64,000 nucleotides of DNA, taken from Pseudoflavonifractor phocaeensis (GTDB lineage: Bacteria > Bacillota > Clostridia > Oscillospirales > Oscillospiraceae). Positions 41,988 through 64,000 of the stretch are shown here, piece by piece. Both the position numbers and the translations under genes were made by a program. The DNA lies in assembly GCF_021531375.1 (NCBI RefSeq), contig NZ_JADYTU010000002.1, forward strand, positions 62,001 to 126,000. The letters are read 5' to 3'. The stretch's first letter is position 1. Each line of letters starts with the position of its first letter. The notes beneath the pieces are model-generated. The model was given only the letters and a program-made list of their open reading frames with translations. It did not search any database and was not told the origin of the DNA.

Positions 41988-42797
41988 TCAGAGACCGAAA
42001 TGAGCCAGAACTCCCACCGCCGCAGTCACGACCAGGAAGAAGACCAGGGTCAGATAGTCGATCCCCCGGTACTTCAGCTGCCGCAGGCGGGTGCGTCCCT
42101 CGCCGCCATGGTAGCAGCGGCACTCCATGGCCACCGCCAGCTCGTCGGCCCGGCGGAAGGCGGAGATGAACAGGGGCACCAGCAGAGGGATCAGAGCCTT
42201 GGCCCGCTGGATCAGATTGCCGCTTTCAAAATCAGCGCCCCGGGCCCGCTGAGCGGACATGATCTTGTCGGTCTCCTCAATCAGGGTGGGGATGAACCGC
42301 AGGGCGATGGACATCATCATAGCCAGCTCATGGACGGGGACCTTGATCTTTTTCAAGGGGTTCAGCAAGGATTCCAGTCCGTCGGTGAGCAGGATGGGGG
42401 AGGTGGTGTAGGTCAGCAGGAAGGTGCCGGCGATGAGCATCATGATGCGGATCACCATAAAGAAGGCCTGGAACACGCCCTCAAGGGTGAGGGTAAAGAT
42501 CCAAAGCTTCACTAGCACATGGGTGCCGGGGGTGTAGAACAGGTTGAGCACCGCCGTAAAGATGGCGATGAAGAGCACCGGCTTCAGCCCGTGGAGAATG
42601 GACTTCAGCGGAACCTTGGAGATGGCGATGGCCAGAGCCAGCACGCCGAACATGATGGCGTAGGTGAGGAAATATTTGGCCAGGAACAGGGCTACAATAT
42701 ACAGCACCACGGCGATGATCTTGGTACGGGGGTCCAGCCGGTGGACCATGGAATTTCCCGGGAAATACTGGCCCAGGGTGATGTCTTTCAGCGCCAT
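41988..42797 (-). CDS. ecfT: ECF transporter transmembrane subunit EcfT
   Basis: The 269-residue membrane protein has about six TM segments and the EcfT cytoplasmic motifs ARGADFESGNLIQRA (A-R-G) and AMECRCYHGGEGRTRLRQL. It couples the ATPases to exchangeable S components that bind vitamins. Its ATG follows the ecfA2 stop directly (TAAATG). Confidence 0.93.
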   Translation of the reverse strand: MALKDITLGQYFPGNSMVHRLDPRTKIIAVVLYIVALFLAKYFLTYAIMFGVLALAIAISKVPLKSILHGLKPVLFIAIFTAVLNLFYTPGTHVLVKLWIFTLTLEGVFQAFFMVIRIMMLIAGTFLLTYTTSPILLTDGLESLLNPLKKIKVPVHELAMMMSIALRFIPTLIEETDKIMSAQRARGADFESGNLIQRAKALIPLLVPLFISAFRRADELAVAMECRCYHGGEGRTRLRQLKYRGIDYLTLVFFLVVTAAVGVLAHFGL

Positions 42798-43661
42798 TTA
42801 CACCGCCCCCTTTCCCAATTTCGAGAGGATGACCGCCTTGGCCTGGTCAATGGTGTATACCGAGGGGTCGATGTCCACCCCCATGGCCCGCAGGCGGTGG
42901 AACACCCGGGTCATCTGGGGGACGCCCAGCCCCATCCGCTCCAGCTCGTCCCCGTGCTGGAATACCTCACGGGGGGTGCCCCGGAAGGGAATGCGGCCGT
43001 CGTTGACTACCACCAGACGGTCCACCGTCCGGGCCACCTCCTCCATGGAGTGGGAGACCAGGATGATGGTGGCGTTGTGGACCTGGTGATAGTCCCGGAT
43101 GTTGCCCAGAATGGACTCCACCCCCACCGGGTCCAGACCGGCGGTGGGCTCGTCCAGGATCAGTACCTTGGGCTCCATGGCGATGACGCCGGCGATGGCC
43201 ACCCGGCGCTTCTGGCCGCCGGACAGCTCGAAGGGGGAATTGTCCAGCTGGTCGTCCCGGAGACCCACGAAATAGGCGGCTTCCCGGACCCGGCGGTCGA
43301 TTTCCTTTTCGTCCAACCCCATGTTCCGGGGGCCGAAGGCGATGTCCTTATATACGGTCTCCTCAAAGAGCTGGTACTCGGGGTACTGGAACACCAGCCC
43401 CACCTGGAACCGGGTGAGGCGGGTCAGCTTGGGGTCGGACCAGATGTCCTGTCCTTGGAACAGTACCTGGCCGGAGGTGGGCTTAAGCAGGCCGTTGAGG
43501 TGCTGGATCAACGTGGACTTGCCTGAGCCGGTGTGGCCGATGATGCCCAGATACTCGCCCTTGTAGGCGGTGAAGTCCACGTCCAGCAGGGCCCCCCGCT
43601 CGAAGGGGGTGCCGGCGGAATAAATGTGGGAGAGCTGTTTGGTTTCAATGATCGCTTCCAT
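42798..43661 (-). CDS. ecfA2: ECF transporter ATPase EcfA2
   Basis: The 287-residue ABC ATPase has GHTGSGKST, LSGGQKRRVAIAG and LILDEPTAGLD, with the C-terminal extension typical of EcfA. Start at ATG 43661, since the longer frame reads back through the gap. It pairs with EcfA1 as a heterodimer. Confidence 0.93.
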   Translation of the reverse strand: MEAIIETKQLSHIYSAGTPFERGALLDVDFTAYKGEYLGIIGHTGSGKSTLIQHLNGLLKPTSGQVLFQGQDIWSDPKLTRLTRFQVGLVFQYPEYQLFEETVYKDIAFGPRNMGLDEKEIDRRVREAAYFVGLRDDQLDNSPFELSGGQKRRVAIAGVIAMEPKVLILDEPTAGLDPVGVESILGNIRDYHQVHNATIILVSHSMEEVARTVDRLVVVNDGRIPFRGTPREVFQHGDELERMGLGVPQMTRVFHRLRAMGVDIDPSVYTIDQAKAVILSKLGKGAV

Positions 43662-43733
43662 TGCAGACCGTCCTTGTTCAAAATGGTGTATGCCGCAGAG
43701 GGTCATACCCGAAGAATAGGAGAATGGGGTGCC

Positions 43734-44582
43734 TTATTGCTTCAGCAGGGTATACAGAGCGTGGGCGCACTCCTCGTCGCTGAGGGCGTCCAGGGGCACG
43801 TCGCAGCCTTCCTGGCGCAGCTCCCACAGCAGTTGGGTAGTGTGGGGAACAGTGAGGCCTACGGCCTTCAGCTCCTCCACCCGGGAAAAGACCTCCTTGG
43901 GGGCGCCGTCGGCCACCACCTTGCCCTTGGCCATGACGATGAGCCGGTCGGCCTGGGCGGCCTCGTCCATGTGGTGGGTGATAAGGACCACGGTGACGCC
44001 GCGCTCCCGGTTCAGAGTCTTGATGGTACGCAGTACGTCGAAGCGGCCGATGGGGTCCAGCATGGCGGTGGGCTCGTCCAGGACGATGCACCGGGGCTGC
44101 ATGGCAATGACGCCGGCGATGGCGATGCGCTGCTTCTGGCCGCCGGACAGAAGGTGAGGGGCGTGCTCCCGGAACTCGTACATGCCCACGGCCTTCAGCG
44201 CGTCGTCCACCCGCTGGCGGATCTCCGCAGGGGGAACGCCCAGATTCTCCGGGGCGAAGGCCACGTCTTCCTCCACCACGTTGGCCACGATCTGGTTGTC
44301 GGGGTTTTGGAACACCATGCCTACGGTGCGGCGGATGTTCAGCAGCTTTTCTTCCTCGGCGGTGTCCATGCCGTCCACATATACCGTGCCGCCGGAGGGC
44401 AGCAGAATGGCGTTCATATGCTTGGCCAGGGTGGACTTGCCGCTGCCGTTGTGGCCCAGAATAGCCACAAAGGCCCCCTCCTCAATGGCAATGTCCACGC
44501 CGTTGAGGACGGTGGGGGCCGTCCCCTCAACTGTGGTGTAAGAGAAATGGAGGTCCTGTGTCTGGATGATCTCGTTGCTCAT
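43734..44582 (-). CDS. ecfA1: ECF transporter ATPase EcfA1
   Basis: The 282-residue ABC ATPase has [22 protein letters not shown] and [15 protein letters not shown] 44582 has GAGGG upstream. It is the first gene of the leftward ECF-truA operon, a group II (shared) energizing module that serves S components elsewhere in the genome. Confidence 0.93.
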
Positions 44583-44660
44583 ATCAGTTTCCCTCATATT
44601 GTTTCGATTCAGTGAAAAATCAGAAGTCGGGCGCCGCACCCCGGCGGGGAGACAATGTTG

Positions 44661-52602: not shown

Positions 52603-52678
<76 letters not shown>

Positions 52679-52782: not shown

Positions 52783-53718
52783 GTGAAAAAATTTTTATGC
52801 GTCATCCTGGCTGTCAGCCTATTAGCCGGCTGCGGCTCCGGAAACAGGGATACGGTCCCGGAGGGGGAGGAAGGGATCACCTTTACCGACGACTTGGGCA
52901 GGACCGTGACGGTGGATCAGCCGGAGCGCGTGGCCGTGCTGATCGGCAGCTTTGCGGACATCTGGTGTCTGGCGGGAGGGAAGGATACCCTGGTGGCGGC
53001 GGCCCACGACAGCTGGACCAGCTTTGATTTGGGTCTGGAGGACTCCGTGGCGGACCTGGGGGCGGTGAAGGAGCCCAGCATAGAACTTCTTCTGGCGTCT
53101 GAGCCCGATCTGGTCCTGGCCAGCAGCAACACCGACGCCCAGGTGGACCTGCTGGAGGTGCTGGAGAGCAGCGGTCTCAATGTGGCCTATTTTAAGGTGG
53201 CCGATTTTGAGGATTATCTGCGGATGCTGAAGATCTGCACCCAGATCACCGGACGGGAAGAGAATTACCTCCAGTACGGCCAGGCGTTGGAGGAGCAGCG
53301 CCAAGCTGCCATAGACCGGGCGGACGGCAGCCGGCCCACGGTGCTCTATGTCCGGGCCACGGGGTCCAGCTGTAAGGTGAAGAACAGCCGGGACAGTGTG
53401 CTGGGCGAGATGCTGGCGGACCTGGACTGCGTCAATGTGGCGGACAGCAATACCGGACTGCTGGAGGAGCTCAGCATAGAGGCCATCCTGGAGGCCGACC
53501 CTCAGTTCATCTTTGTGGTCCTGCAGGGGGCCGATCCCACCGCCGCCCAGGAGACTTTGGACCGTACCCTCCTGTCCAACCCGGCCTGGAAGAGCCTTAC
53601 CGCGGTGAAGGAGGGGCGCTGCTATATGATGGACCACCAGTTGTATAACCTGAAGCCCAATGCCCGGTGGGGCGAGGCCTACGAAAATCTGGCGGATATC
53701 CTGTATCCTGTGTCTTAA
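52783..53718 (+). CDS. ABC transporter substrate-binding lipoprotein (FecB/BtuF-like)
   Basis: The 311-residue protein has a signal peptide with lipobox LLAGC and the TroA-like binding fold, starting with ITFTDDLGRTVTVDQPERVAVLIGSFADIWCLAG. This family binds siderophore, haem or cobalamin. GTG 52783 follows GGAAGGACAAC; the longer frame begins inside the tRNA and is not real. The matching FecCD permease and ATPase lie 4 kb away on the other strand (57158-58952), so they probably work together. Ligand is inferred only. Confidence 0.88.
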   Translation: MKKFLCVILAVSLLAGCGSGNRDTVPEGEEGITFTDDLGRTVTVDQPERVAVLIGSFADIWCLAGGKDTLVAAAHDSWTSFDLGLEDSVADLGAVKEPSIELLLASEPDLVLASSNTDAQVDLLEVLESSGLNVAYFKVADFEDYLRMLKICTQITGREENYLQYGQALEEQRQAAIDRADGSRPTVLYVRATGSSCKVKNSRDSVLGEMLADLDCVNVADSNTGLLEELSIEAILEADPQFIFVVLQGADPTAAQETLDRTLLSNPAWKSLTAVKEGRCYMMDHQLYNLKPNARWGEAYENLADILYPVS

Positions 53719-56046: not shown

Positions 56047-56122
<76 letters not shown>

Positions 56123-56697: not shown

Positions 56698-57021
56698 ATG
56701 GGCTGCTTTCTTTCAGAACCCTTAGTCCCTAAGGACAGCGACAGCTTGCTCTGCGTATACTGTCAGAAGTGCCGATACCAGAAGAGGTGTCCTTATATTT
56801 ACGATCAGGCTTTGTACCGTGCGGCCCGCCAAGGATGTGCGGCGGCGCAGCTCCTGACAGCAGAAGCTGACCGGACCCTGAAGAGGCTTTCCCGTGCTGA
56901 CGACGTCCGCTGCCTGCGCAGCAGTGACGGGGCTGTCGAGTATGTGCTGTCCCATGCACTGAGCTTGGAAATGTCCTCGCTGGATGAACTGGGTGCCCAA
57001 ACGGTGAAAGGCGTCCTTTGA
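56698..57021 (+). CDS. Hypothetical protein with Cys cluster
   Basis: The 107-residue protein contains CVYCQKCRYQKRCPYIY, a close Cys cluster that could bind zinc or an iron-sulphur centre, followed by a helical region. The family is not recognised. GAGGAGG gives a good ribosome site. No similar neighbour other than 56319-56636. Confidence 0.65.
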   Translation: MGCFLSEPLVPKDSDSLLCVYCQKCRYQKRCPYIYDQALYRAARQGCAAAQLLTAEADRTLKRLSRADDVRCLRSSDGAVEYVLSHALSLEMSSLDELGAQTVKGVL

Positions 57022-57114
57022 GGAGCCACTGATTCAATAGTCTTTATGCAAATCAGGAAACATGGTTGTCGTAACGTTTGCTACTGCCGGGTGTTAAGAA
57101 ACGGGACGGGAACA

Positions 57115-57153
57115 AAAAGGCCTGTAACGGCAACGTTACAGGCCTTTTTAAAA
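57115..57153. terminator. Bidirectional terminator
   Basis: AAAAAGGCCTGTAACG and CGTTACAGGCCTTTTT pair around GCAA. The A and T runs on either side let it serve both the rightward hypothetical genes and the leftward ABC operon. Confidence 0.9.
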
Positions 57154-57157
57154 GGAT

Positions 57158-57943
57158 TCAGCCCTCTTTCCGGGTATCTCCCGGCGCAAACAGATAGGCG
57201 ACGCCGCCGGAAGGGGAGCGCACCTGCTCCGTACGGACGGAGAACACCCGGTCCAGTGCGCCGGAGCGGTAGACCGCCTCGGGCGGGGCCGCCATGACCA
57301 CCGTGCCCGCTCCGTCCATCAGACAGACCCGGTGGGACACGGTCAGGGCGTCGGACAGGTCGTGGAGCGTCATGACCACCGTTTTTCCGCTCTGGTTCAG
57401 CCGCCGGGCCAGCTCCATAACTGCCAGCCTGCTGCCCACGTCCAGGTAGGTGGCGGGCTCGTCCCACAGCAGCAGCGGCGTCTCCTGGGCCACCGTCATG
57501 GCCAGATACACCCGCTGGCGCTGACCGCCGGACAGCTGTCGCAGCTTTTTGTGCCGCCACTGGGTCACCTCCGTGATCTCCATGGCGCGGTCCACCTGTT
57601 CCCGGTCGTGGGCGGTCATCTGCCTGGAAAATCCCAGATAAGGGAAGCGGCCGTGGGCCACCAGAGCCCCTACGGTGATGTCCGGGGTCTCCCGGAGCTG
57701 GGGCAGATAGGCCCGGAACCGGGCCAGTTCCCGCTCGGACAGTTGGGCCAAGTCCCGGTCCTCTGCCTGGACGGAGCCAGCCTGAGGGGGGAGCAGTCCG
57801 GCCATGGTTCGGAGCAGGGTGGTCTTTCCGCAGCCGTTGGGCCCGATCAGGGAAAGGATTTCCCCCCTGCGGACGGTCAGGTCCACCTGCCGGGAGACGG
57901 GAACGCCGGCGTAGCCGGTGCCCAGGCGGATACACTCAATCAT
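57158..57943 (-). CDS. FecE/BtuD-like ABC transporter ATPase
   Basis: The 261-residue ATPase has GPNGCGKTT, LSGGQRQRVYLAM and LLLWDEPATYLD, the pattern of iron-chelate/cobalamin importers. ATG 57943 has GGAGGG; it overlaps the permease gene by 8 bases. It is the last gene of the leftward cluster. Confidence 0.92.
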   Translation of the reverse strand: MIECIRLGTGYAGVPVSRQVDLTVRRGEILSLIGPNGCGKTTLLRTMAGLLPPQAGSVQAEDRDLAQLSERELARFRAYLPQLRETPDITVGALVAHGRFPYLGFSRQMTAHDREQVDRAMEITEVTQWRHKKLRQLSGGQRQRVYLAMTVAQETPLLLWDEPATYLDVGSRLAVMELARRLNQSGKTVVMTLHDLSDALTVSHRVCLMDGAGTVVMAAPPEAVYRSGALDRVFSVRTEQVRSPSGGVAYLFAPGDTRKEG

Positions 57944-58952
57944 GCAGCTTCCCTCCTCTCCTGTGGAACAGCAGGACGATGAAGCAGCACCCGCCGACCA
58001 GGGACAGGACCACACCCACGGGGAGCTCGAAGGGGGCGAACAGCACCCGGCCCAGCAGATCGCACAGCAGCACGCTGCTGGCCCCCAGCAGGGCCGACCC
58101 TGCCACCACCGTCCGGCTGTCCGCGCCCAGGAGAATGCGGGCGGCATGGGGCACCAACAGCCCCACAAAGCCGATGAGCCCGGCAAAGCTCACCGAGGCC
58201 CCCGCCAGCACCGCCGCCGTCAGGATCAGCAGCAGCCGGCAGCGCTCCACCTTCAGCCCCAGGGAGTGGGCCATCTCCTCTCCCAGAGCGAGGATGTTCA
58301 TATCTCCGCTCAGAACCAGGGCGGCGGCCAGTCCCGCCGCCAGATAGGGCAGGGCTGCTTTCAGCTCTCCCATGGTGACGCCGTTGAGGGTGCCCACGGA
58401 AAAGCTGTTATAGGCCGCCAGAATGTCGGGGAACAGGAACCTAATGCAGGCGGAGGCCGCGTTGATGACGCTGGTCACCGCCACGCCGGCCAAAATCAGG
58501 GTCATCCGGGAGGCTCCGGTCCACCGGGCCACCCCGTAGATCAGCAGGGCGCAGGCCAGCGCGCCTACGAAGGCGGCAGCCGGCAGCAGGGCCACCGCCC
58601 TGGGAAACAGGGCCATCACCATCAGGGAGGCAAAACCCGCCCCGGCGTTTACACCGATGATGTTGGGTCCGGCCAGGGAGTTGTTCAGCACCACCTGGAG
58701 TACCGCCCCGGAGACTGCCAGACCGCAGCCGCACAGAACGCCGCCCAGGGTCCTGGGCAGGCGGGAATAGAGGAAGATCCGCAGGGCCGTATCCTCCCAG
58801 TCGCCGGCCAGGGCCGCACGAAGCGCCTGCCACAGGGACAGGCGGATGGAGCCCAGCAGAAGGGACAGGACCACCGATACCAGCAGCAGCGCCGCCAGCC
58901 CGGCCAGCCGCATCCCGGACCGCCGTCCGTCCATCCGCTTCCATTGGTCCAT
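57936..58952 (-). CDS. FecCD/BtuC-like ABC transporter permease
   Basis: The 338-residue protein has about ten TM helices and the family motifs RLPRTLGGVLCGCGLAVSGAVLQVVLNNSLAGPNIIGVNAGAGFA and LIGFVGLLVPHAARILLGAD. It imports an iron chelate, haem or corrinoid together with the ATPase that follows; the binding protein at 52783 is the likely partner. AAAGGGTG precedes the ATG. Confidence 0.92.
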   Translation of the reverse strand: MDQWKRMDGRRSGMRLAGLAALLLVSVVLSLLLGSIRLSLWQALRAALAGDWEDTALRIFLYSRLPRTLGGVLCGCGLAVSGAVLQVVLNNSLAGPNIIGVNAGAGFASLMVMALFPRAVALLPAAAFVGALACALLIYGVARWTGASRMTLILAGVAVTSVINAASACIRFLFPDILAAYNSFSVGTLNGVTMGELKAALPYLAAGLAAALVLSGDMNILALGEEMAHSLGLKVERCRLLLILTAAVLAGASVSFAGLIGFVGLLVPHAARILLGADSRTVVAGSALLGASSVLLCDLLGRVLFAPFELPVGVVLSLVGGCCFIVLLFHRRGGKLHD

Positions 58953-59039
58953 TGTTTCACACCCTTTCTTACCGGCTTGATCGCCCCCACGGTGGGAGCG
59001 GTGATACGCTTTTCAAAAAATTGGGAGAGCGTCCGATTC

Positions 59040-61685
59040 CTACTCCACCAGCCCATATTTGACCTGGATGCGGTCCAGCTTCTCCAGCATGGGTTCGGCC
59101 GCAAACCAGAGGAACAGCCATGTGGCGGCGGCATGAACGCAGTCCATGGGGAACCCGGTGATATAATAGGTCAAAAGGATCTTCCAATTGAGCTCGCTGG
59201 CCCACATCAGGGCGGAGGCCGGGTTCATGATGCCGCCGTAAATGAGGATGGCGGAGAGGGCTCCGAAGGAGCAGAGAGCTCCCCTGGTGCGGCGCAGCCA
59301 GCCCTTGCGGAACAAAACGCCCGCCAGAAAGCCGGTGATGCCCATGGCGAACATCTGCCAGGGCGTCCACGGACCCTGGGAGAACATCACATTGGAGGCC
59401 AGCATGGTCATAGCCCCCACCAGAAAGCCTGTCTCGCCTCCGAAAGCCACACCGGCGATGATGGTGATGGCCAGAGCGGGCTTGAACTGGGGCAGCATGA
59501 AGAAAACCGCCCGCCCGGCCACGGCGATGGCGCAGAGTACCGCGATGACCACCAGCTCTCTGGCCTGGGGCTTGCGCCCCTCAAAGATCAGGAAGAAGGG
59601 TAGCATGGTCTCCAACAGGATCAGCAGGGCAATGAAATAATATTTCCTGCTGTCCAGATAATACACGCCGAAAAACAGTGTCAGCGGGATCAGCAGCAGG
59701 ATCATGACCATTGCCGCCAGTGTGCGCTTGGCAAGCTTCCGCTTCTCCCGGGGAGGCTGCTCCAGGTAGTCCGGGCGGCGGTGCCTGCGGCTGACGCAGG
59801 CGGCGAACACAAGCAGCGCCGCAATGAAAATGCCGTACAGTCCCATTTGACCCGCAGCCTGCTCTGACAGGCCCTGCGTATTGACCAGAGCGGTCAGATC
59901 GGCGGTCCCCATGAAGCGCAGCAACAGCGTCAGGGACAACCCGCCGGACAGTACGGCCCCCAGCCTGCGCGGCCACGAAAGGGGTTGCGGCCTGTCTGCG
60001 CTGCTGCCGACGTCCGGCTCAGGCAGCGCCGGGGTGTCCCTGGGAAGCTCCGGCGCGGGGGGAAGCTCGCCGCCGCAGGCGGCAATGAGATCCTCCGCCG
60101 TCACCGCCTCGGGCAGCAGGGACCGGGCCATCCGGTTGGCGGAGGTGGTGTAGAAGCTGTTTCCGGAGAAGAAGGCGCGGGGCGGCGCCTCGGCGACGAT
60201 GTTCCCGTCAAAGAACAGAGCGCAGCGGTGGGCGTATTTGGCGCAGAACTCAATGTCATGGCTGACCATGAGCACCGCCGTGCCCCAGGCCAAAAGGGCC
60301 TGCAGGATCTCCCCGAATACCTGCTTGAACTGGGCGTCCAGGCCCTTGGTGGGCTCGTCCAGCAGGAGAATCTCGGGGTCGAGGAGCAGGACCTTGGCCA
60401 GGGCGGCGCGCTGCTGTTCGCCGCCGGACAGATCGTAGGGGTGCCGGTCCAGCAGCTCCTCCAGGCGGCACAGCCGTACCACGCGGGCTACCTTGGCGTC
60501 CCGGACGTCCTGGCTGAGCTTTTTGTCCCTGAGAATCTCCAGCAGGTCCTCACGGACGGTCTTTTTGAGAAACAGAGTCTGGGGGCTCTGGGGCAGCACG
60601 CCCACGGTGCCCTGGGCAGACACCTTGCCGCGGACGGGCTTCAGCAGCCCGGCCGCTAACTTGAGCGAGGTGGTCTTTCCGGTGCCGTTGCCGCCCAGCA
60701 GAGCCAGAAATTCTCCCCTCCTGACGGTGAGGGACAGGCCCTTCACCACGTCGGGCTGGTCCCGCTCATACCGGAACCACAGGCCGTCGGCCTGGACGGC
60801 GGCTGCGCCGTAGGGGATGTGCCCGGGCTCCGGAGGCAGATCGTTCCAAGTATGGCTCGCGCCAAAGCCGGCCAGCCACTCCCGGCCTTCCCGGACGGTA
60901 ATGGGGCATTGGGCGTTGTTCTCCACCGCCGCCCACACCCGCATAGGGGTAGGCATGGCCAGGAACATGGCGTGTCCACGGCTCTTCAGCTGTGCGCCCA
61001 CCTCCCTGGGAGTTCCGGCGCAAAGCAGCCTGCCCCCGTCCAGAACGGCGGCGCGGCTGGCCAATGGGAGCGCCTCCTCCAGACGGTGCTCCGTCAGAAG
61101 GATGGTGGTGCCCAGCTCCCGGTTGATCTTGCCCAGGGTGGCCAGAAAATCCGAGGCCGCGATGGGATCGAGCTGGGAGGTGGGCTCGTCCAGAAGCAGA
61201 AGATCGGGCTGCATGACCATGACGGAGGCAAGATTGAGCAGCTGCTTCTGCCCGCCGGACAGCTGGGCGACGTCCCGGTGGAACCAGGTCTGGATGCCGA
61301 AGAAGGAGGCCATCTCCGCCACCCGGCGGCGGATGGTGGGTGTATCCCAGCCCAGGCTCTCCGGCCCAAAGGCCAGCTCGTGCCACACCTTATCGGTGAC
61401 GATCTGGTTGTCCGGGGACTGCTGTACAAAGCCGATGCGCCGGGACTGGGTGCGCCGGTCCAGTTGGTCAAGGGGCGTCCCCTCGAAGAGGATCTGACCG
61501 CTCCGCCTCCCGTGGGGGACCAGAACAGTCTTCAACTGGCGGAGCAGGGTGCTTTTGCCGCAGCCGGAGGGGCCGCAGAGGACGAAGAACTCCCCCTGCC
61601 CCACCGAGAGGGTCAGGTCCTCCAGCGCGGGCTTTTCCTGCTCCGGATAGAAAAAGCTCAGGTTTCGGATCTCAAGTGTTTCCAT
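59040..61685 (-). CDS. Fused EcfA-EcfA-S component of ECF transporter
   Basis: The 881-residue protein has two ABC ATPase modules (GPSGCGKST with LSGGQKQLL; GGNGTGKTT with LSGGEQQRAA) and, from about residue 630, a membrane domain with about eight hydrophobic segments ending in an S-component-like region (AVAGRAVFFMLPQFKPALAITIIAGVAFGGETGFLVGAMTML). Both energizing ATPases and the substrate-binding subunit are thus one chain. ATG 61685 is taken because METLEIRNLSFFYP is the natural ABC start. It overlaps the ecfT stop by 28 bases. Confidence 0.9.
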   Translation of the reverse strand: METLEIRNLSFFYPEQEKPALEDLTLSVGQGEFFVLCGPSGCGKSTLLRQLKTVLVPHGRRSGQILFEGTPLDQLDRRTQSRRIGFVQQSPDNQIVTDKVWHELAFGPESLGWDTPTIRRRVAEMASFFGIQTWFHRDVAQLSGGQKQLLNLASVMVMQPDLLLLDEPTSQLDPIAASDFLATLGKINRELGTTILLTEHRLEEALPLASRAAVLDGGRLLCAGTPREVGAQLKSRGHAMFLAMPTPMRVWAAVENNAQCPITVREGREWLAGFGASHTWNDLPPEPGHIPYGAAAVQADGLWFRYERDQPDVVKGLSLTVRRGEFLALLGGNGTGKTTSLKLAAGLLKPVRGKVSAQGTVGVLPQSPQTLFLKKTVREDLLEILRDKKLSQDVRDAKVARVVRLCRLEELLDRHPYDLSGGEQQRAALAKVLLLDPEILLLDEPTKGLDAQFKQVFGEILQALLAWGTAVLMVSHDIEFCAKYAHRCALFFDGNIVAEAPPRAFFSGNSFYTTSANRMARSLLPEAVTAEDLIAACGGELPPAPELPRDTPALPEPDVGSSADRPQPLSWPRRLGAVLSGGLSLTLLLRFMGTADLTALVNTQGLSEQAAGQMGLYGIFIAALLVFAACVSRRHRRPDYLEQPPREKRKLAKRTLAAMVMILLLIPLTLFFGVYYLDSRKYYFIALLILLETMLPFFLIFEGRKPQARELVVIAVLCAIAVAGRAVFFMLPQFKPALAITIIAGVAFGGETGFLVGAMTMLASNVMFSQGPWTPWQMFAMGITGFLAGVLFRKGWLRRTRGALCSFGALSAILIYGGIMNPASALMWASELNWKILLTYYITGFPMDCVHAAATWLFLWFAAEPMLEKLDRIQVKYGLVE

Positions 61686-62596
61686 TTTCGATCCTCCGAT
61701 TTGTTCAAAAATACCGGCGTCAGACACAGTGCCAGATACACCAGCTGGAAGCTGACCGTCATGGGGGTGATGGGGGCGACCCGGACGGTGGGGTAATAGC
61801 GGCAGTACAGCCCGCCGGCCATCCACCCGGCCAGGATATAAAATCCGCAGAAGGACAGCCACGCCAGAGCGCCCTTGTCCCGGCTGTCCAGACGGTAGAT
61901 GGAAAAGGCGGTGCGGCCCGGCAGACCGTAACCCCGGCTCTTCATGCTGTCCGCCGTCTCAATGGCGTTTTCCAGCGCCCAGGTGACCAGGATGGAGAGG
62001 ACTGTTACGGCGCCGCGAAGCCGCCAGATCAAGGGTCCCTTGGACACGTCGCGCCCCACGTACCGCTGGGCTTCGCTGACCGCGTGGAGCTGCGCCTTGA
62101 AGCGGGGCACCAAGCGCAGGGTCATAGACAGCACCAGACTCAGGGCCGGAATGATGCGGCCGAACAGGTAAATGAACTTATCCGAGGTCATGACGGCGTG
62201 ATAGCAGGAGAACCAGGTGATGACGCTGGCCAGCATCACGGCCGCGGCAATGCCGTAGAGGATGCTCTCCGCGGTCAGTGGATTGCCGGAGGGGAGATAG
62301 ACCAGCAGCGTGGCCCCCTGATGGTTGAAAGCCGGATTGACTAGGGCCGCCATGAGTATCATGGGCAGCATATACAGCAGGGAGAACCGCGCGGCTCTCC
62401 GGCCGTTGAGGCAGAGCGCGTAGCAGAGGGACGACCCCAGGGAAATGGCCAGGCTGGCCGGGTGCATGAAAAACATGGTGAACACCAGCACCAGCCCGAA
62501 GTACAGAAAATTCACGATGGGGTGGTAGCCGGAAAAGGCGTCTCGGTTTTGAATAAGGCAACCCTCCTGTGGCGCGAAGGCGGCGCGCCCAAGCAT
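61658..62596 (-). CDS. EcfT-like transmembrane subunit (second ECF system)
   Basis: The 312-residue membrane protein has the EcfT motifs (ADSMKSRGYGLPGRTAFSIYRL: the A-x2-R-G type signature) and about six TM segments. The natural N-terminus of relatives begins near RDAFSGYHPIVNFLYF. ATG 62596 has AAAGGA upstream and is used here, but an ATT at 62554, eight bases after AGGAGG, gives a start closer to the family. It should pair with the fused A-A-S protein. Confidence 0.88.
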   Translation of the reverse strand: MLGRAAFAPQEGCLIQNRDAFSGYHPIVNFLYFGLVLVFTMFFMHPASLAISLGSSLCYALCLNGRRAARFSLLYMLPMILMAALVNPAFNHQGATLLVYLPSGNPLTAESILYGIAAAVMLASVITWFSCYHAVMTSDKFIYLFGRIIPALSLVLSMTLRLVPRFKAQLHAVSEAQRYVGRDVSKGPLIWRLRGAVTVLSILVTWALENAIETADSMKSRGYGLPGRTAFSIYRLDSRDKGALAWLSFCGFYILAGWMAGGLYCRYYPTVRVAPITPMTVSFQLVYLALCLTPVFLNKSEDRKWKHLRSET

Positions 62597-62621
62597 GTGT
62601 AAGATCCTTTGGGGGAAGGGT

Positions 62622-63449
62622 TCAACCCTCCACCGAATTGCGGCCGCCTACATCGGCGCCCTGGTCGCAGGTGTAGACCCAGCAGATAACATCGCCGTCC
62701 TTGAGCTGATAGCGGGAGCAGCCGTAGTTGGGGAACCACTCGTTGACCTTGTACATCCAGCCGGACAGTTCGCCGCAGTCAAACTCATACAGGTTGTGGA
62801 TGCCCTCGATATAGTCGCTGTCGTAGAGGGGGGTGTTGGTGTATTCCAGGTGGATCTTCTGTTCCCGGCAGGTGCGCCGGAGCACGTCGAACACGCTTTC
62901 CCCCTCTGTAAAGGTGACAGAAATGGGCTTCAGGACCCAGCCGTCCTCCGGCACCAGCTCCGCCTTCTCCGGGTCCAGCCAGTCCATATGGCTGAGGATG
63001 GAGGCGCAGGAAATGGACAGGGTGCAGGTGCGCTCCGTATCCGAGGGGGTTGCGTCCTGGGGGCCTGCCGGCAGGGGCGCGTCTTCGGACGCCGGGATAG
63101 TGGCCGTATTCTGCTGCCCGGAGCGGTCCGCGTCCACAGATTGGATGCCGGAGGAGGAACTGGCGTCCGGCCCGGCCTGCTCGTCAGACTGTCCGTTTTC
63201 GGAAGCGTCGGGGGGCGTTCCATCAGACTTCGCGGCCCCGTCCGGTCCGACCCCGGGGCCCGGAGTTTGGGAGGACTCTGCCGGGTCGGAGACGGAGGCC
63301 GGGACGCTGTTCTCTGGGGAGCTCCCGCCGTCCGACGCCGGAAAGCCTGATGTGCCGGGGGCGCTGCCGCCGTACCAGAAGGCCCCGGCCAGCACCGCCG
63401 CGATCAGGATCGGGAGTATGACCTTCCATTTGTTGTTCTTCCACCACAT
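62622..63449 (-). CDS. DUF4430 membrane-anchored protein (transcobalamin-like domain)
   Basis: The 275-residue protein has one N-terminal TM helix, a Ser/Pro/Asp/Gly-rich linker (about residues 28-135) and a C-terminal DUF4430 domain (VFDVLRRTCREQKIHLEY ... GIHNLYEFDCGELSGWMYKVNEWFPNYGCSRYQLKDGDVICWVY). DUF4430 is related to a domain of cobalamin carriers. It is the first gene of the ECF cluster and may capture the ligand at the cell surface. A hairpin-containing leader precedes it. Confidence 0.87.
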   Translation of the reverse strand: MWWKNNKWKVILPILIAAVLAGAFWYGGSAPGTSGFPASDGGSSPENSVPASVSDPAESSQTPGPGVGPDGAAKSDGTPPDASENGQSDEQAGPDASSSSGIQSVDADRSGQQNTATIPASEDAPLPAGPQDATPSDTERTCTLSISCASILSHMDWLDPEKAELVPEDGWVLKPISVTFTEGESVFDVLRRTCREQKIHLEYTNTPLYDSDYIEGIHNLYEFDCGELSGWMYKVNEWFPNYGCSRYQLKDGDVICWVYTCDQGADVGGRNSVEG

Positions 63450-63620
63450 ATTCTCTCGCTCCTCATCATCTCAGGTTTCGCGGCCTGCGGGCGGTTAGAA
63501 AAAGACAACAGGCCACCCTGCGAGCGGCCTGTTTCTCATGAATGGGCGGTAGGGACGGCCTCGTACGGACCGCTTCACAGGGACCGAAAGGTGCTGTTAT
63601 TTCAATGAAAAATATTATAA
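63450..63620 (-). promoter_or_regulatory. Leader of ECF cluster with terminator-like hairpin
   Basis: On the minus strand an extended -10 (TGTTATAAT, 63614-63622) starts a leader of about 155 bases. It contains GC-rich pairing segments and a hairpin AACAGGCC/GGCCTGTT (63507-63533) followed by GTCTTTTTC, which would terminate before the DUF4430 gene. This suggests attenuation. I could not match it to a known riboswitch class; the cobalamin box was not seen. Confidence 0.55.
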
Positions 63621-64000
63621 CACAGCTTCCATGGAGATAGGAAGTATATTGCTGAAGAAAATTCTCTGCGGCAAATTTTGGGAAAATGAAAAGAATAACA
63701 AGCTTTACTCAAGAATATCACATTTTATGGCCCAGGCGTTTGAACGGTGTCAGGAAATGCCGGAGACATCAAATAGGAAGCCTCTGACGTTGGAAAAGGG
63801 GAATGAGATACAATCCGCGACGACGTGGAACCCGCGGACACGTTCGATGCGCTGACATTCAAGCCTGCACCCTAGAACCAAATCACAACCCAGCGCAGCG
63901 GCTGTGATTTGGAAAAGAGGGACAAAGCGGACATTGTTCCGACGTGGTGCAGGTAGTGGAGACCGAACCTGCTGAATGAATGCGGAGAGCGGATCAATGA
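63621..64000. other. Right edge of window, no secure gene
   Basis: A 74-codon ORF at 63631-63855 (+) has a weak start context and no recognisable domain; I leave it uncalled. A hairpin CAAATCACA ... TGTGATTTG lies at about 63880-63914. Base composition is lower in GC than the genes to the left. Confidence 0.4.

Follow-up and report, generated by a model that had tools for sequence, protein, structure and literature searches.

Corrinoid uptake through energy-coupling factor (ECF) importers has been described for the S component CbrT, which was reported to support growth on cobalamin and cobinamide (PMC5997447) and to diffuse away from its module (PMC12075633). For bacterial SLBB proteins, of the transcobalamin C-terminal type, that are encoded with CbiO/CbiQ-like genes, vitamin B12 scavenging was predicted, and the genomes concerned were described as usually being without key B12 synthesis enzymes (Burroughs et al., 2007, PMC1796856). 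A survey of gut genomes reported homologues of CbrT and BtuFCD and presented the finding of B12 transport systems as an open problem (PMC6593275), and fusion of a pair of ECF ATPase (A) domains in one chain has already been described (PMC6828968). Here, we analyzed a locus of Pseudoflavonifractor phocaeensis in which such a fused ATPase pair also carries an S component (EcfA-EcfA-S, hereafter A-A-S) and is followed by the genes of a FecCD-FecE importer. The locus lies in a window of 64,000 nucleotides (nt), the whole stretch of DNA analyzed, which corresponds to positions 62001-126000 of contig C22 in an assembly of 2.28 Mb and 66 contigs with a listed completeness of 99.95%; positions without a contig or locus name are those of the window. 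Our analyses indicate that this locus is likely an uptake operon for corrinoids (vitamin B12 or cobinamide) that combines a dedicated, tethered ECF importer with a BtuCD-type importer.

Five intact open reading frames (ORFs) occupy the minus strand from 63449 to 57158 in the order DUF4430 - EcfT - (EcfA-EcfA-S) - FecCD - FecE, which confirms the gene order and common direction given in a preliminary description of this DNA; the coordinates given there were 59040-63449, and FecCD and FecE fall outside this interval. EcfT (61658-62596, minus strand; exact start uncertain) is a transmembrane coupling protein of the CbiQ family (PF02361, 2.6e-6, 27.7 bits against a cut-off of 25). Its end is overlapped by the start of the A-A-S gene (59040-61685, minus strand), which is most likely the ATG at 61685 behind a GGAGG and not the GTG at 61862 that opens an ORF of 940 residues. 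The resulting protein of 881 residues (TIGR04520, 316.4 bits against a cut-off of 315) consists of two ECF ATPase domains (about residues 1-560), both with intact Walker A, signature, Walker B, and H-loop motifs, a linker with extra hydrophobic segments, and the S component (about residues 644-881; 59040-59756, minus strand), in which two extra N-terminal helices precede the S-component core. The presence of its own EcfT and of a covalently attached S component fits the earlier proposal of a dedicated energizer, as in group I ECF transporters, and the fusion and the operon suggest that it may serve its own S component exclusively. The module with which it had been contrasted, described as a shared ecfA1A2T at 41988-44582, was found at 41988-44639 and contains two ECF ATPases, but its T protein had no NCBIfam match at a limit of 1e-60.

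The fusion is not an accident of the reading frame, because all 73 relatives with enough upstream sequence were also fused. These belong to a set of named loci, the best 80 of at least 560 confirmed, in which each feature was counted only where the sequence was long enough; EcfT was encoded upstream in 67 of 68, and DUF4430 was present in 49 of 62; 33 of 48 loci contained one more gene that gave a transcobalamin-toroid-like match. A set of 20 loci, hand-picked to cover long and short reading frames and indicating which forms exist rather than how frequent they are, included 15 with fused A-A-S and 5 in which S has its own gene next to one for A-A. In a BLAST search with the S region, matches were obtained in 171 of 400 sampled family genomes at E <= 1e-3 and in 151 at E <= 1e-20, and the weak ones among the 171 are perhaps other S components; within a genus set of 64 genomes, the S region was found in 9 at E <= 1e-20, a patchy distribution close to home. 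Carriers include Ruminococcus bromii, Fusibacter paucivorans, and a Pelotomaculum bin, and within Clostridia DUF4430-EcfT-A-A-S occurs widely, with transcobalamin-toroid-like genes often preceding it. A few loci were assigned to bins that seem unlikely sources (an archaeon, an Alistipes, and a Paludibacteraceae), perhaps through binning errors. One of the unlikely assignments was that of locus L174, binned as a Nitrososphaerota archaeon, in which a clostridial-type DUF4430-EcfT-A-A-S with 56-63% identity was observed; this locus is probably mis-binned.

The evidence for a corrinoid ligand comes first from the sequence of the S domain, which scored as an ECF S component (PF07155, 4.1e-10; PF12822, 7.1e-8). 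As a single sequence it matched CbrT (6fnp_A, 9.5e-8) and no other PDB entry up to an E-value of 10. A profile of 21 sequences placed CbrT (7.2e-17) 13 orders of magnitude ahead of the next solved S component, RibU (3p5n, 7.7e-4), which was followed by 4hzu_S (5.3e-3); the heme S component LhaS (PMC7299338) stood outside all comparisons of the S domain. The AxxxA small-residue motif described for helix 1 of S components (PMC11109136) was found at S residues 72-76, with Ala at both places in 40 of 52 aligned rows and small residues in all 52. By sequence the S domain is most likely CbrT-like, which points to a corrinoid as the ligand.

A second line of evidence is the DUF4430 protein encoded by the first gene (62622-63449, minus strand; 275 residues; PF14478, 3.7e-18). 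It comprises a hydrophobic N-terminal anchor, a low-complexity linker of about 110 residues, and a C-terminal transcobalamin-type beta domain, and it does not look like a lipoprotein because the N-terminal hydrophobic segment is without a cysteine. Since a DUF4430 sequence profile found nothing in the PDB, the fold of the domain was predicted. The AlphaFold2 (AF2) model had a predicted local distance difference test score (pLDDT) of 92.9, and 17 of its 19 Foldseek matches at E <= 0.001 were transcobalamin, intrinsic factor, or haptocorrin, the remaining two being chains of one Ruminococcus gnavus protein. In VIA-align, the model was superimposed on haptocorrin with cyanocobalamin (CNCbl) with a Z-score of 14.1 (102 aligned residues, 1.9 Å), and the first rows beyond the B12 carriers and the R. 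gnavus protein had Z-scores below 8. The DUF4430 domain is thus predicted to share the beta-domain fold of transcobalamin, intrinsic factor, and haptocorrin; as a fold alone does not show binding, the protein is a candidate cobalamin binder. To the left of the window, at C22:53228-56809 (L009:11228-14809), a riboswitch is followed by the gene for an SLH protein of 1082 residues with a DUF4430 domain. This protein, the only other DUF4430 protein of the genome, also had a terpene-cyclase (toroid)-type match under the Pfam cut-off and is a candidate wall-bound transcobalamin-like receptor.

Third, related operons were linked to cobalamin riboswitches. Within 16 kb upstream of S, a limit chosen after the places had been seen, and with four matches under the family cut-off dropped, a cobalamin riboswitch was found on the same strand in 11 of the 20 hand-picked loci and on either strand in 13, compared with 0.18 and 0.35 expected from the riboswitch numbers and genome sizes of the 20 genomes. 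An Rfam scan of 26 of the 80 named loci, within the available locus sequence, likewise showed a cobalamin riboswitch upstream on the same strand in 11. The single cobalamin riboswitch of the window genome is located at C22:53228-53452, directly before the gene for the 1082-residue DUF4430/SLH protein and about 64 kb from the window operon. Tetrapyrrole methylases of the PF00590 family were limited to two in this genome, CobA-HemD and the 16S rRNA methylase RsmI, so that no corrin-ring methylases were found by this family search, which covered PF00590 and not the other cbi genes; judged from gene content, the bacterium appears unable to build the ring of vitamin B12. The corrinoid ligand that the preliminary description suggested for the ECF part is therefore borne out by the nearness of S to CbrT in sequence, the carrier fold of DUF4430, and the riboswitches at related operons. 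What it had named as contrary to this suggestion, an S domain closest to a non-tetrapyrrole vitamin family together with no cobalamin response, is not what was found.

The downstream genes encode a FecCD-family permease (57936-58952, minus strand; PF01032, 1.4e-79), the sole FecCD found in the genome, and a FecE/BtuD-type ATPase of 261 residues (57158-57943, minus strand), whose start overlaps the FecCD stop. The ATPase matched NF008409 (FecE, 4.9e-69) and NF007082 (corrinoid ATPase, 6.2e-57), both under the curated cut-offs. The curated BtuC and BtuD models were missed (NF003001, 184.1 of 334 bits; NF002981, 142.7 of 281 bits), and among the matches listed no other FecCD/FecE-type equivalog model of NCBIfam reached its cut-off. 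There is no binding protein within the operon; the sole Peripla_BP_2 protein found is an orphan, "BtuF-like" lipoprotein (52783-53718, plus strand; lipobox LAGC), the genome's only PF01497 match, encoded on the opposite strand 3.4 kb beyond FecE.

To place the permease, 36 related FecCD loci were compared, with neighbors counted up to 9.5 kb: 20 lay near MET8 and/or CobA-HemD (siroheme), 6 near cbi genes without MET8, and 10 near neither. One branch of the permease tree (support 99/97) separated all 6 cbi loci from all 20 siroheme loci, and the window FecCD was placed on the cbi side, in agreement with a smaller tree; cbi genes were named by NCBIfam at L077, L075, and L175. The orphan lipoprotein grouped among the siroheme-linked binding proteins with support of 100/100. 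As the two lie on opposite sides of the siroheme/cbi split, the window FecCD and the lipoprotein do not look like old partners, and the trees of permeases and binding proteins led us to reject the lipoprotein as a mark of such a partnership. This leaves without support the argument from nearness with which the ligand had originally been connected to precorrin-2 genes and the lipoprotein, since these belong to a binding protein-FecCD-FecE-MET8-CobA/HemD cluster with which the window FecCD does not group. Genes for a binding protein, FecCD, and FecE were repeatedly grouped with MET8 and/or CobA/HemD, in 20 of the 36 loci (L078-L084, L086, L087, L090-L092, L183, L185, L186, L190-L192, L194, and L195), and the gene content of this cluster marks it as a predicted importer tied to siroheme synthesis. 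In the window, the lipoprotein, CobA/HemD, and MET8 genes are bracketed by two copies of tRNA-Ala (GGC), at 52603-52678 and 56047-56122, which occupy the same positions in G039, a genome of the same genus.

Comparison with G039 indicated how the two importers came together. It is the sole other sampled genome with a close permease (86% identity; the next best reach 55% among family genomes and 53% among genus genomes). G039 keeps the window order from 49334 to about 56137 (lipoprotein, CobA/HemD, and MET8), and the segments 57181-58910 and 59049-63449 align to two other places, so that three pieces of the window correspond to three sites; the homology of the FecCD block starts within 42 nt of the FecCD start. 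The G039 FecCD is located on contig C11, about 56 kb from the only binding protein of that genome, and the ECF operon on another contig. Five genus genomes had both S and FecCD matches, on the same contig only in the window genome. Among family genomes with S at E < 1e-20 and both positions available, 12 of 13 had the two on different contigs and 1 on the same contig; this count excludes G060 and G161, which also hold both, and in such fragmented assemblies different contigs give no distance between ECF and FecCD. FecCD was encountered in 1 of the 80 named ECF loci, L175, a number limited by locus length, since 43 of the 80 (L175 counted in regardless of its length) extend to 13.7 kb or more and many are too short to judge. 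A conserved FecCD and ECF pair was rejected on these counts, and the combination of two importer types pointed out in the preliminary description stands for the window genome and L175 but is not conserved elsewhere in the sampled genomes. In L175 (119-13918, labeled Tissierellia), a cobalamin riboswitch comes after DUF4430-EcfT-A-A-S and precedes FecCD-FecE, a binding protein, and cbiK-cbiD, with both importer kinds within 10 kb; there is therefore at least one further case of the two kinds meeting near B12 genes. We infer a lineage-specific operon merger at the window site, proceeding from separate to joined because the other genomes show the separate state.

The ECF genes and FecCD-FecE are probably transcribed together. 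In the gap of 87 nt between A-A-S and FecCD (59040-58952, minus strand), a consensus scan gave no terminator-like match and folding was unremarkable (z = 0.87). A hairpin with a U tract after FecE (57113-57150, minus strand; -27.4 kcal/mol, z = -5.71) likely ends the transcription unit; since the same scan overlooked this hairpin, its lack of a match in the gap carries little weight.

Several observations weigh against a corrinoid operon. The operon itself has no RF00174 cobalamin riboswitch or other known riboswitch, and a consensus scan of 56900-64000 gave no promoter-like sites. Among the relatives, a cobalamin riboswitch is missing from both strands of the 16 kb upstream in 7 of the 20 hand-picked loci; of the 26 scanned named loci, 15 lack a same-strand copy upstream, with 3 of the 15 carrying one elsewhere in the locus. 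The DUF4430 sequence profile retrieves no transcobalamin from the PDB. The cbi/siroheme division of FecCD loci is blurred at L086, a siroheme-side locus that also carries cbiL/cbiK-like genes, and the best NCBIfam match of the orphan lipoprotein is heme IsdE (69.4 bits against a cut-off of 298.65). For the S domain, the riboflavin S family provides the best Pfam name, and CbrT matches that family weakly; in addition, VIA-align ranked CbrT only 22nd for the S model (Z = 11.6), with 4hzu_S at 17.3.

Part of this evidence would suit two unrelated neighbors, of which the ECF part imports a corrinoid and FecCD-FecE, with the IsdE-like lipoprotein, imports heme or an iron chelate. Besides the IsdE match of the lipoprotein and its siroheme-linked grouping, such an arrangement agrees with the lack of a conserved ECF/FecCD adjacency, with the absence of a cobalamin riboswitch from all seven FecCD loci scanned, and with the G039 FecCD, whose neighbors look like metal-type genes as judged from their first residues only. 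However, the riboswitch absence does not discriminate, because L077, one of the seven loci, is a full cbi operon. The IsdE match is shared by the binding protein of the riboswitch-preceded cbi operon of L175, for which IsdE was likewise the best match (66 bits). The permease tree places the window FecCD with the cbi-linked loci, and no terminator is visible between the two operons. We regard unrelated neighbors as unlikely and a joint corrinoid operon as likely.

The S-domain observations could instead indicate that the ECF part imports another ligand, such as a riboflavin-like vitamin, heme, or cobalt, and that its link to cobalamin is indirect; the placement of EcfT in the cobalt CbiQ family would be in line with this. 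The AF2 model of the S domain (pLDDT 83.7) showed an S-component fold with the two extra N-terminal helices and was nearer to other S components, mostly at Z-scores of 12.6-17.3, than to CbrT, which was also absent from its best 50 Foldseek matches. The structural comparison that the preliminary description had proposed as a check did not single out CbrT, and structure does not decide the ligand because other S components rank above CbrT. When a CbrT fragment was searched as a control, it matched both of the Pfam families found for the S domain, in reverse order. Together with the strong preference of the S profile for CbrT, the DUF4430 fold, and the riboswitch linkage in relatives, this makes a different ligand quite improbable. 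Within the corrinoid reading, a special case would have DUF4430 stand in for a missing cognate BtuF, so that one membrane-anchored transcobalamin-like receptor serves both the tethered A-A-S importer, cycling without S release, and a BtuF-less BtuCD-type importer; the sole binding protein found in the window genome (G000) and in G039 is not beside FecCD, that of G000 is of another phylogenetic type than FecCD, and both genomes with this permease also carry DUF4430-EcfT-A-A-S, but with just two genomes, an orphan lipoprotein available, and the two loci kept apart in G039, we consider both the substitution and such a shared receptor very doubtful. We know of no precedent for DUF4430 replacing BtuF.

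In the favored corrinoid uptake operon, the DUF4430 protein at the membrane and the SLH-anchored DUF4430 protein in the wall would capture the corrinoid outside the membrane and hand it to the S domain. The fused A-A pair would then hydrolyze ATP and, via EcfT, topple the S domain so that the corrinoid is released inside. Because it is covalently linked to the ATPases, the S domain cannot leave by free diffusion; tied by the linker, it would topple in a tethered cycle. FecCD-FecE would provide a second corrinoid path, with the orphan lipoprotein (52783-53718) or another protein as its receptor.

Other features were observed around the operon. Upstream of DUF4430, a leader (63507-63600, minus strand) contains a terminator-like hairpin and a possible competing pairing, an attenuator-like arrangement. 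It matched no Rfam family and had no convincing relative in the compared loci (best nhmmer E-value outside its own genome 0.04, at L139), and its fold barely exceeded that of shuffled sequences (z = -1.54; 17 of 200 shuffles as good). Just to the right of the window, divergent from the ECF operon, lies a gene for a Fur-family regulator (C22:126087-126470; L007:1087-1470), followed by a 6-pyruvoyl-tetrahydropterin-synthase-like gene. A palindromic repeat of 54 nt occurs on the minus strand near tRNA genes at 63867-63920, L007:4499-4552, L007:13136-13189, and C36:1462-1523. Its window copy adjoins a segment of 30 nt (63940-63969) with 80% similarity to the 3' end of a genuine tRNA gene, and the two are perhaps an insertion remnant beside the ECF operon.

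Compared with known systems, the ECF part resembles ECF-CbrT of Lactobacillus delbrueckii (PDB 6fnp, PMC5997447) in its ECF ATPases, its EcfT, and the proposed cobalamin/cobinamide ligand. CbrT, however, is described as a separate protein (a 182-residue chain in 6fnp) on a shared group II module (PMC12075633), whereas in the window the S component follows both ATPases in a single chain, carries two additional helices at its N-terminus, and is accompanied by an EcfT of its own. In the literature searched, which covered few subscription journals so that an earlier mention is possible, no report of an A-A-S fusion was found. In this fusion a CbrT-like S component is naturally tethered, which makes it testable whether S must leave its motor; that a fusion of S to the ATPases is widespread and conserved suggests that full S release is not needed. 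The FecCD-FecE part shares a FecCD-family permease and an ATPase with the type II importer BtuCDF, and its permease groups with cbi-linked relatives; unlike BtuCDF, it has no adjacent binding protein, and the only one in the genome is of the siroheme-linked type. With the SLBB/CbiO/CbiQ loci (PMC1796856) the window shares DUF4430 beside genes for ECF ATPases and EcfT, and the S component with its fusion to the ATPases, the link to riboswitches, and the FecCD-FecE neighbor go beyond the accessible part of that description. DUF4430-EcfT-A-A-S is a strong candidate B12 importer for a good part of Clostridia. The animal carriers transcobalamin, intrinsic factor, and haptocorrin have the beta-domain fold in common with the modeled DUF4430 domain, and toroid-like matches were found in neighboring genes of the relatives. 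Unlike in the animal carriers, separate bacterial proteins often carry the toroid-like and the beta domains, and DUF4430 has a membrane anchor and is encoded next to an importer; the predicted common fold would thereby link the B12 carriers of bacteria and animals at an importer locus.

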